Of a stretch of 64,000 nucleotides of DNA, positions 61,357 through 64,000 are shown piece after piece. A program made the translations under genes and the position numbers. The notes below the pieces were generated by a model. The model was given only the letters and a program-made list of their open reading frames with translations. It made no database searches and was not told the DNA's origin. The stretch spans positions 103,879 to 167,878 of the forward strand of contig JAUXVT010000049.1 of the NCBI GenBank assembly GCA_030680405.1. The letters run 5' to 3'. Origin of the DNA: Thiobacillus sp. (GTDB lineage: Bacteria; Pseudomonadota; Gammaproteobacteria; Burkholderiales; Thiobacillaceae). Each line of letters starts with the position of its first letter. Within the stretch, counting starts at the first letter, position 1.

Positions 61357-61839
61357 TCAACGCTTGACCTGGAGGTCGTTGCTGATTCCCTTCACACCCT
61401 CGACGCTGCGCGCGATGGCTTCTGCCTGGGCAATCTGCGCCGGGCTGTTGACCCAGCCGGCCAGCTGGACCGTGCCCTTGTGGGTTTCCACGTTCACGCT
61501 CAGCCCTTTCACGCCTTCGTCTTTCAGCAGCAGCGCTTTCACCTTGGCGGTAATCCACGCGTCGTCGACGTATTTGCCGGCCTTGACGCGTTCGTTGTTG
61601 GCGATGGCCTTGACGTATTCGTCGCTGTTCAGACGGTTGTCGCGGTTGGCGTCGCCTTCACGGAAGGCCTGTTCCTGGCCGCCCTGAGCCTTGAATTCCT
61701 CGAGGCTGATCTTGCCGTCGCCGTTGCTGTCGTAGGTCTTGAAACCCGGCATTGCCGAAGTGGCCAAGGCAGACGCAGAGGCGGCGCTCAGCACGCCGGC
61801 AAGAGCCAGTTTCAGAAAGCTATGGTTTAGGTGCTTCAT
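61357..61839 (-). CDS. Exported EF-hand/BON domain fusion protein
   Basis: ATG 61839 (AGGAG upstream) gives 160 residues. The signal peptide (MKHLNHSFLKLALAGVLSAASASALA) is followed by two EF-hand loops (YDSNGDGKISLEEF, DANRDNRLNSDEY), the first canonical for calcium, the second with weaker ligands. A BON domain follows (about 85-160: DAWITAKVKALLLKDEGVKGLSVNVETHKGTVQLAGWV), found in OsmY-like periplasmic stress proteins that bind phospholipid membranes. The EF-hand half is closely related to the neighbouring 100-residue gene. The two are 44 bp apart and probably one operon, downstream of a sigma-54 promoter at 62250. Confidence 0.88.
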   Translation of the reverse strand: MKHLNHSFLKLALAGVLSAASASALATSAMPGFKTYDSNGDGKISLEEFKAQGGQEQAFREGDANRDNRLNSDEYVKAIANNERVKAGKYVDDAWITAKVKALLLKDEGVKGLSVNVETHKGTVQLAGWVNSPAQIAQAEAIARSVEGVKGISNDLQVKR

Positions 61840-61883
61840 GTTGATCTCCTGATCATGATTCAACAAAATGAATGCTCAAGCAG

Positions 61884-62186
61884 TCAGTAGCGGTTGGTGC
61901 CGGGCTTGTCCTTCTTGAGGAATTCATCGCTGCTCAGGCTCTTGTCCTGGTTGACGTCGCCTTCACGGAAGGCCTGTTCCTGGCCGCCCTGAGGCTTGAA
62001 TTCCTCGATGCTGATCTTGCCGTCCCCATTGCTGTCGTAGGTTTTTAAGCTGGGTGCGCCCGAGGGGGTGGCGGGTGCTCCACGGGTGGCGCCGGGCATG
62101 GACTGGGCGGCCAGGGCAGACGCAGAGGCGGCGCTCAGCAGGCCGGCAAGCGTGAGGGTCAGAAAGCGAGAATTAATGGATTTCAT
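61884..62186 (-). CDS. Small exported EF-hand protein
   Basis: This is a 100-residue exported calcium-binding-type protein. The signal peptide (MKSINSRFLTLTLAGLLSAASASALA) leads into a short Pro/Ala/Gly stretch, then two EF-hand loops, YDSNGDGKISIEEF and DVNQDKSLSSDEF, separated by GGQEQAFRE. The loop region is almost the same as in the downstream EF-hand/BON protein, indicating tandem duplication. A -24/-12 promoter lies 68 bp upstream of ATG 62186, and two GlrR-type operators lie further upstream. Confidence 0.88.
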   Translation of the reverse strand: MKSINSRFLTLTLAGLLSAASASALAAQSMPGATRGAPATPSGAPSLKTYDSNGDGKISIEEFKPQGGQEQAFREGDVNQDKSLSSDEFLKKDKPGTNRY

Positions 62187-62241
62187 GTCTATCTCCTGTC
62201 GTGAGTTGAATTCGAATGCAGATGCACTCAGGCTGGCTGTA

Positions 62242-62257
62242 GCGACGACCGTGCCAG
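62242..62257 (-). promoter_or_regulatory. Sigma-54 promoter of the EF-hand/BON operon
   Basis: On the minus strand CTGGCACG-GTCG-TCGCT matches the -24/-12 consensus YTGGCACG-N4-TTGCW at 12 of 13 positions, with the essential GG-N10-GC spacing. The -24 GG is 68 bp before ATG 62186. Confidence 0.75.
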
Positions 62258-62283
62258 ATCTGTTTTTATTAAAAAAAACAGAT
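62258..62283. repeat. AT-rich hairpin upstream of the sigma-54 promoter
   Basis: ATCTGTTTTT (62258-62267) and AAAAACAGAT (62274-62283) form a perfect stem immediately upstream of the -24 element. It could be an IHF/curvature region or a terminator. Confidence 0.6.
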
Positions 62284-62341
62284 AGATAGGTGATTTGTAA
62301 GGAGCGGGTTGCCTGGTTGCATCAGCCTGTGCGGGCGGATA

Positions 62342-62421
62342 TGTCGCCTGCCGGCGACGGATACAGCTGAAGTTTTCAAGCTTTTGTTTTTATTGGATTG
62401 TTTTGTCCGCTATCGGCGACG
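62342..62421. promoter_or_regulatory. Two GlrR-type operators upstream of the EF-hand operon
   Basis: TGTC-N10-GACG occurs twice, at 62342-62359 and 62404-62421, each one base from the TGTC-N10-GACA motif described for GlrR. They lie about 95 and 155 bp upstream of the -24 element, a normal position for sigma-54 enhancers. Confidence 0.6.
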
Positions 62422-62451
62422 TGCCGGCAAGCCCTTGGCAATAGGCAATAA

Positions 62452-62471
62452 AAAAGGGAGGCAAGCCCCCC
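62452..62471 (-). terminator. Intrinsic terminator of the DUF1328 gene
   Basis: On the minus strand AAGGGGGG-CTTG-CCTCCCTT (one G-U pair) is followed by TTTT, 20 bp after the DUF1328 stop. Together with the operators and hairpin, this accounts for most of the 305-bp gap 62187-62491. Confidence 0.8.
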
Positions 62472-62491
62472 TTCCTGTGCGACAACGGGTT

Positions 62492-62659
62492 TCAAACAGT
62501 TGGCGGGCGACGCCCGGTGACCAGCAATAACAGAAACACCACCAGACCGACGACAAACAGCACTTTGGCGATCCCGGCGGTGGTGCCGGCCAAGCCGGCA
62601 AAGCCGAAAATCCCGGCAATGATGGCGACGATCAGAAACGCAATGGCCCATCCGAACAT
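62492..62659 (-). CDS. DUF1328 (YtjA-like) small membrane protein
   Basis: This 55-residue protein is too short for the ORF track. ATG 62659 with AGGAG eight bases upstream opens [32 protein letters not shown], followed by a second helix ([17 protein letters not shown]) and RRPPTV. Two membrane helices and the [14 protein letters not shown] signature identify the DUF1328/YtjA family, often linked to envelope or osmotic stress. It has its own sigma-54 promoter (62720) and terminator, so it is a one-gene unit between glrR and the EF-hand operon. Confidence 0.93.
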
Positions 62660-62711
62660 GGTGTTCTCCTCTGAGAATTGATAACGCGCCAGGGGGCGAT
62701 ACCTCTCTATT

Positions 62712-62727
62712 GCAGAGTGTGTGCCAA
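62712..62727 (-). promoter_or_regulatory. Sigma-54 promoter of the DUF1328 gene
   Basis: On the minus strand TTGGCACA-CACT-CTGCA matches YTGGCACG-N4-TTGCW at 11 of 13 positions with correct GG-N10-GC spacing. The -24 GG is 65 bp before ATG 62659. Confidence 0.75.
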
Positions 62728-62801
62728 ATCAATAATTTGCTTTTGAATCATATTATTGGATTGCGGGGCTGGAGGCGGGCGCGTGTCCGTGCAGGCGCGG
62801 G

Positions 62802-62819
62802 TGTCGTCGGTGCCAGACA
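62802..62819. promoter_or_regulatory. GlrR-type operator upstream of the DUF1328 gene
   Basis: TGTC-N10-GACA is an exact match to the motif described for enterobacterial GlrR, extended to GTGTC/GACAC. It lies about 85 bp upstream of the -24 element and directly after the glrR stop codon. Confidence 0.65.
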
Positions 62820-62820
62820 C

Positions 62821-64000
62821 TCAGGCGGTTTCGTCGCGATCCTTGAACAGGGCGGGAGTCAGGCCGTGGCGTTGCAGCAGCCGATAAACCTCGGTGCGGT
62901 TGCGTCCGGCCAGCCGCGCCACTTCACTGACCTGCCCGCGGGTGAGCTTAAGCAGGCTGATGAGGTAATCGCGTTCGAACGCCGTGCGCGCCTCGGCCAG
63001 CGGCTGGATCTCGGCCGGCTTGTCGCGCAGCGCGCGCGCCACCAGCGTGGCCGGAATGGTGGAGGTGGTGCAGAGCGCCACGCATTGCTCCAGCACGTTG
63101 TGCAACTGGCGGATATTGCCCGGCCAGTCGGCCGCCACCAGCATTTCCAGCGCCTCGGGGGCAAAGCCGTGGATGCGGCGGCGGTATTTTTCGGTCAGCA
63201 CGGTGAGGAAATGCCGCGCCAGCAACGGAATGTCCTCGCGCCGCTCGCGCAGCGGCGGCAGCGTCAGGTTGACCACGTTGAGGCGGTAATACAGGTCTTC
63301 GCGAAACTCGCCGCTGACGATCGCCTCTTCCAGATTGCGGTGGGTGGCCGACAGGATGCGCACGTCGACCGCGCGCGTTTCGGTCGCGCCCACCGGCCGC
63401 ACCTCGCCCTCCTGCAGCACGCGCAGCAGCTTGACCTGCAGGGGCGCGGGCATGTCGCCGATCTCGTCCAGAAACACCGTGCCGCCATGCGCGCTGAGGA
63501 ACAGGCCGGGATGGTCGCGCCCCGCTCCGGTAAAGGAACCTTTCATGTGGCCGAACAGTTCCGACTCAAGCAGTTCAGCCGGAATCGCACCGCAGTTGAT
63601 CGCGACGAATGGCTTGGCACGGCGCGGACTGGCGCGGTGAATGGCGCGCGCCAGCAGTTCCTTGCCAGTGCCAGACTCCCCCTGAATCAGCAGCGCGGCC
63701 TCGCTTTGCGCGGCCAGCAGCGCTTCGGCCAGCAGCGTGTCCATCGCCGGACTGGCGGTGAGAATTTCGCTGCGCCAGCTGTCGTCGCCCGTGTCGGGGC
63801 TGCTGCCCGCCAGCAGGGTGGCGCGTTTCAGCAAGTCGACCAGCGTCTTGGCATCGTAGGGTTTGGTCAGGTAGCCGAACAGGCCTTGCTGGGTGGCGGC
63901 CACGGCATCCGGAATGGTGCCGTGCGCGGTCAGCACGATCACCGGCAGCGTCGGGTCGCGCGCATGGATGGCGCGAAACAGCGCCATGCCATCCATGCCG
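62821..64000 (-). CDS. glrR: GlrR-like sigma-54-dependent response regulator (5' end off window)
   Basis: The C-terminal 393 residues of an NtrC-type activator. The receiver part begins at GMDGMALF (the phospho-Asp lies just outside) and contains LTAHGTIPDAVAATQQGLFGYLTKP, very like GlrR/QseF. The AAA+ domain is fully equipped, unlike NtrX in this window: Walker A GESGTGKE, sigma-54 loop GSFTGA, Walker B GGTVFLDEIGD, R-fingers in REDLYYRLNVV. The C-terminal Fis-type helix-turn-helix reads QVSEVARLAGRNRTEVYRLLQRHGL. Partner kinase GlrK would be upstream, outside the window. Two sigma-54 promoters with matching operators lie directly downstream. Confidence 0.88.
   Translation of the reverse strand, partial: GMDGMALFRAIHARDPTLPVIVLTAHGTIPDAVAATQQGLFGYLTKPYDAKTLVDLLKRATLLAGSSPDTGDDSWRSEILTASPAMDTLLAEALLAAQSEAALLIQGESGTGKELLARAIHRASPRRAKPFVAINCGAIPAELLESELFGHMKGSFTGAGRDHPGLFLSAHGGTVFLDEIGDMPAPLQVKLLRVLQEGEVRPVGATETRAVDVRILSATHRNLEEAIVSGEFREDLYYRLNVVNLTLPPLRERREDIPLLARHFLTVLTEKYRRRIHGFAPEALEMLVAADWPGNIRQLHNVLEQCVALCTTSTIPATLVARALRDKPAEIQPLAEARTAFERDYLISLLKLTRGQVSEVARLAGRNRTEVYRLLQRHGLTPALFKDRDETA

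Follow-up and report, generated by a model that had tools for sequence, protein, structure and literature searches.

To our knowledge, nearly all work on GlrR (QseF) concerns enterobacteria, in which its known targets are glmY and rpoE. The last part of the Thiobacillus sp. DNA analyzed here (the window, 64,000 nucleotides of contig JAUXVT010000049.1, assembly GCA_030680405.1) carries a glrR-like gene with genes for small membrane and EF-hand proteins directly behind it, which raises the question of whether GlrR governs its neighbors in this lineage. From sequence comparison, we assign a probability of roughly 0.87 to the reading that a local GlrK-lipoprotein-GlrR circuit controls the DUF1328 gene and the EF-hand operon through sigma-54 promoters. 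All genes at the window end lie on the minus strand, as do all window elements whose coordinates are given below.

Identity of the regulator

The glrR (qseF) gene (62821-64000, minus strand) encodes an NtrC-type response regulator; the contig ends inside the gene, and its 5′ end is missing. The protein fits the family's receiver, sigma-54 AAA+, and HTH architecture, and the top NCBIfam match of the truncated protein is the GlrR model NF011695 (522.8 bits, E = 6e-157), followed by NtrC at 384; the score lies below the 763-bit NF011695 cut-off, with ~60 N-terminal amino acids absent from the truncated gene. Identity to E. coli GlrR is 57%, and the recognition helix AGRNRTE(V/F)Y(R/K)LL is kept between the two proteins. 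In Thiobacillus thioparus (L162), the gene order is kinase, small lipoprotein, glrR, DUF1328, EF-hand, EF-hand/BON, and a conserved 120-amino-acid protein, which includes a glrK-lipoprotein-glrR operon. The lipoprotein (159 amino acids, lipobox LSAC) had no match in Pfam, and its proposed homology to QseG is based on where it lies and on the lipobox. Given the best NCBIfam match, the conserved recognition helix, and the glrK-lipoprotein-glrR order, we identify the window regulator as GlrR.

The assembly contains two glrR loci, that of the window and G000:C23:716-1888 (L002), whose proteins are 91% identical and whose DUF1328 and EF-hand versions differ. Since the GlrR C terminus occurs in 44 of the 55 other genus genomes, each time as one orthologous copy, one of the two contigs is probably that of another Thiobacillus population binned together with the first.

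Genes downstream of glrR

The first gene behind glrR (62492-62659) encodes a DUF1328 small membrane protein of 55 amino acids (PF07043, E = 6.8e-13). It is followed by genes for an EF-hand protein of 100 amino acids (61884-62186; PF00036, E = 2e-9) and an EF-hand/BON protein of 161 amino acids (61357-61842; PF04972 BON, E = 3.4e-21, and PF00036, E = 6.9e-11), both with signal-peptide-like N termini. The products are small and mostly exported or membrane proteins, and a periplasmic location is likely for those that are exported. Both EF-hand proteins contain DSNGDGKISxEE, which fits the canonical DxNxDGxxxxxE loop, along with a second, less canonical loop; judging from the canonical loops, they may bind calcium. 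The top PDB match of the EF-hand/BON protein is OsmY (8rjx, E = 2.5e-26, across the BON domain), and its BON domain matches OsmY, a periplasmic BON protein, best. However, it has one BON domain behind EF-hands, whereas OsmY has two, and it scores 72 bits against an OsmY family cut-off of 174. XopAW and lanmodulin models were rejected as identities, their matches being far under the respective cut-offs. A further, conserved operon gene (60920-61276) has an in-frame stop at 61058-61060 in this assembly; in relatives it is intact (111 to 121 amino acids) and carries an NDEHMxLYEWSGAG motif, and a Pfam search with this gene gave no match.

Promoters and predicted GlrR sites

Each of the two units is preceded by a putative -24/-12 (sigma-54) promoter with GG-N10-GC spacing: TGGCACACACTCTGC for DUF1328 (62712-62726), identical or near-identical in relatives, and TGGCACGGTCGTCGC for the EF-hand operon (62242-62256), about 66 and about 69 bp, respectively, from the start codon. 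The predicted GlrR upstream activating site of DUF1328, TGTCTGGCACCGACGACA (62802-62819), is exact and lies 1 bp past the glrR stop codon. The EF-hand operon has a distal site, CGTCGCCGATAGCGGACA (62404-62421), 62 bp from a proximal one, CGTCGCCGGCAGGCGACA (62342-62359), each with one mismatch. The TGT-N12-ACA core is exact in the DUF1328 site and, for the EF-hand sites, in several relatives, and the -24/-12 elements stand at a phased distance from the sites. The original prediction had described this layout, a glrR-like gene followed by two units with GG-N10-GC promoters, one exact site and two near-exact ones, and coordinates, Pfam matches, and mismatch counts bear it out; its placement of the sites at -85 to -155 from the -24 element was approximately right, the measured start-to-start distances being 93 bp for DUF1328 and 165 and 103 bp for the EF-hand distal and proximal sites.

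An IHF-like site, CAAATTATTGATT (62727-62739), adjoins the DUF1328 -24 element and matches YAANNNNTTGATW exactly, while the corresponding match at the EF-hand promoter is poor. IHF-like sites with zero or one mismatch are found in 53 to 56% of promoters versus 3 to 4% of shuffles, and most of them stand at one set distance before the -24 element. From these sequences, GlrR binding, IHF binding, and sigma-54 transcription may all be expected at the promoters described.

Could the two units instead be read mainly through promoters of the sigma-70 type, or by transcription continuing past glrR, with the sites as relics? A sigma-70 scan found no promoter-like site ahead of either the DUF1328 or the EF-hand gene. 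Behind DUF1328 lies a terminator-like hairpin with a T tract (62457-62471), which suggests that DUF1328 forms a unit apart from the EF-hand operon; it matches the consensus, although the number of such hairpins found is not above that in shuffles. Moreover, the sites and -24/-12 elements are conserved and the intervening sequence mostly is not, and we regard this alternative as very unlikely.

The EF-hand mRNA is predicted to begin with a near-invariant inverted repeat, GAGTGC-ATCT-GCATTC (62214-62229), that could stabilize the transcript or bind a protein. Across 22 sequences, 99.2% of cells pair; because covariation is weak, we report the element only as a conserved inverted repeat. DUF1328 mRNAs likewise have a CGCC/GGCG hairpin at their predicted 5′ end. 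A glmY-like RNA was sought at the locus and was not found, and the one weak Rfam match there, RF03012, was rejected (26 bits, with the gathering score at 49).

Conservation and specificity within the genus

We compared spacing across 26 loci, one from each of 25 genomes and, in addition, the second copy of this MAG. At the EF-hand promoter, the proximal site lies 102 to 104 bp from the -24 element in 25 of 26 loci (92 bp in the other), the distal site 165 to 168 bp from it in 18 of 26, and the two sites are 62 to 64 bp apart. The DUF1328 site occupies nearly the same place in 16 loci, 90 to 93 bp from the -24 element. Where distances deviate, they do so together: both promoters of one locus (L029, G003) are about 11 bp, or one helical turn, shorter (81 and 92 bp), and in another genome (G066) the EF-hand promoter and that of a bactofilin gene are both shorter by about 10 to 11 bp. 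In aligned promoters, the sites and the -24/-12 element are kept and little between them is, the exception being a TTGATT element about 20 to 32 bp before the -24 element that fits an IHF half-site. Several loci without DUF1328 retain the EF-hand promoter. The comparison of relatives that had been proposed as a check therefore favored the prediction: sites, promoter, and spacing are kept in the genus, and they recur beside glrR in other families.

The proposed genome-wide scan pointed the same way. The composite motif (site plus -24/-12 element) has seven matches in the whole 2.67-Mb genome versus none for a reversed control, and four of the seven sit at the two glrR loci. Single TGTC-N10-GACA sites, at 45 in the genome versus 22 for the control, are not specific on their own; the composite is informative. 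That GC-rich sequence produced the pairing by chance is extremely improbable. Loose patterns do give many chance matches, and a loose composite pattern run on 40 genomes was dropped, its control being as frequent as the motif; against this, the stricter composite gave seven matches versus zero, and chance is refuted by the conserved positions in relatives. Two kinds of hits from the composite search were set aside as looking like those of other activators, namely TGTCATGACA-type sites and a site that precedes the gene of a transporter-like substrate-binding protein. The TGTCATGACA-type sites mark a different sigma-54 promoter family, found repeatedly in the genus, e.g., at L125 (G029:C95), and probably under another activator.

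Bactofilin and fccAB-like genes

A composite search of 56 genus genomes also recovered a separately located bactofilin gene (PF04519), preceded by two sites and one -24/-12 element. The strict -24/-12 element is paired with sites at 24 of 30 bactofilin loci, that of this MAG (G000:C23:45452-46072) included, and the other 6 have one or more sites and a slightly variant element (TGGCTCG or TGGCGCG...TATTGC) with unchanged spacing, so that a -24/-12 element stands in register with the site or sites at all 30 loci examined. In five Thiobacillus genomes, sites and promoter are arranged in this way also before a cytochrome c-flavoprotein pair (L118, L120, L123, L124) that looks like fccAB, of which Pfam confirms only the cytochrome; this arrangement possibly links the circuit to sulfide oxidation.

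Relation to known GlrR systems and to other activators

In E. coli, QseF/GlrR activates glmY and rpoE via such sites, and IHF assists at glmY (PMC6075780). Three sites are present in the MG1655 glmY promoter, of which two are separated by 63 bp and the proximal one lies 107 bp before TGGCACAGTTACTGC, and the glmY cores TGTCGCTTTCTGGCGACA and TGTCTCTTTTTAGCGACA match Thiobacillus sites such as TGTCGCC-N4-GGCGACA. The Thiobacillus locus thus shares with the GlrK-QseG-GlrR (QseEGF) system of Enterobacteriaceae the regulator family, the kinase-lipoprotein-regulator order, the site core, the 62- to 64-bp inter-site spacing, the -24/-12 promoter, IHF-like sites, a target adjoining the regulator operon, and an envelope theme. 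The targets differ: those of Enterobacteriaceae are the small RNA glmY, upstream, and rpoE, whereas those of Thiobacillus would be DUF1328, EF-hand, and EF-hand/BON genes downstream plus bactofilin elsewhere. This is a new target set for a known regulator and not a new kind of system.

A competing explanation accepts sigma-54 dependence but has some other NtrC-family activator with a similar recognition sequence bind the sites. Such activators are numerous (9 to 27 matches per genus member), and one 99% complete genome (G025) has intact sites at bactofilin and fccAB with no detectable glrK or glrR. However, the site core and 63-bp phasing equal those of E. coli glmY, the sites directly follow glrR in many families, and a closely matching HTH occurs in genus genomes only in the glrR orthologue, bar one weak 36% match. 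We therefore hold control by another activator to be improbable, if less so than the alternatives above. The chief discrepancy, that of G025, could reflect a gap in the assembly, loss of the genes in the recent past, or the action of a different activator.

Within the genus, the GlrR C terminus is absent from 11 of 56 genomes, and since 4 of these (G006, G027, G068, G077) retain glrK, their glrR was probably lost in assembly. Neither glrK nor glrR nor a close EF-hand/BON orthologue was found in the nearly complete genomes G005, G025, and G028, a joint loss that, as one linked locus, is not an independent test; G028 has no composite match, and G005 has a short bactofilin-like gene without sites.

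The original proposal that GlrR drives these genes thus gains support from conservation, from the match in core and spacing to glmY, and from the evidence on regulator identity. For the GlrK-lipoprotein-GlrR circuit, we envisage that an envelope signal would be sensed by GlrK with the lipoprotein, as by QseE/QseG in E. coli, and that phosphorylated GlrR would bind the TGTC-N10-GACR sites just past its own gene. IHF bending would then bring GlrR into contact with the sigma-54 form of RNA polymerase on the -24/-12 promoters, switching on DUF1328 and, separately, the operon of EF-hand and EF-hand/BON genes. The same sites may act before the bactofilin gene elsewhere in Thiobacillus and before fccAB in some species. 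By analogy with enterobacteria, the signal for GlrK may be envelope stress.

GlrR and adjacent genes in other Beta- and Gammaproteobacteria

The available part of one study (PMC12691602) reports qseEGF clusters across Beta- and Gammaproteobacteria and Acidithiobacillia, with Chitiniphilus shinanonensis among the Betaproteobacteria; it concerns the kinase-lipoprotein interaction rather than targets outside enterobacteria, whereas we address downstream targets. In the open-access literature, the scope of our survey, we found no link of GlrR/QseF to these genes outside enterobacteria. We took the 80 named loci with the closest GlrR C termini, 78 of which had enough downstream sequence. A site plus -24/-12 unit lies within 700 bp downstream of glrR at 60 of the 78 versus 6 of 1,102 control tiles from the remaining sequence, counts that are not independent events, as the loci are phylogenetically clustered. 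In C. shinanonensis (L180), the gene directly behind qseF encodes a BON protein and is preceded by a site and a -24/-12 element. Targets checked by Pfam include MdoG/OpgG (Polaromonas, Hydrogenophaga, Roseateles), an OpgH-like glycosyltransferase behind a short ORF (Variovorax), EF-hand+BON (Methylovorus), BON (Chitiniphilus, Aromatoleum), EF-hand (Wenzhouxiangella), and a glycine-zipper protein. No such sites were found downstream of glrR in Thauera and several other Rhodocyclaceae loci.

The target set first proposed, an envelope group of local genes, is supported for those genes and was probably too narrow, as bactofilin and, elsewhere, opgG/opgH, BON, and glycine-zipper genes would join it. 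BON and OsmY-like domains, OpgG/H, and bactofilin together point to the cell envelope. With moderate confidence, we favor the view that GlrR acts as a local switch in many Beta- and some Gammaproteobacteria, governing periplasmic or envelope proteins whose genes directly follow its own (BON, EF-hand, EF-hand+BON fusions, OpgG/OpgH, glycine-zipper), with bactofilin added in Thiobacillus, and that enterobacterial glmY is one lineage's variant of this general arrangement. The defined site architecture and target list make the role of GlrR testable in many other bacteria, and the promoters give a reporter for finding the signal of GlrK. DUF1328, EF-hand/BON, and bactofilin genes, whose functions are unclear, would thereby be tied to one envelope-sensing pathway.
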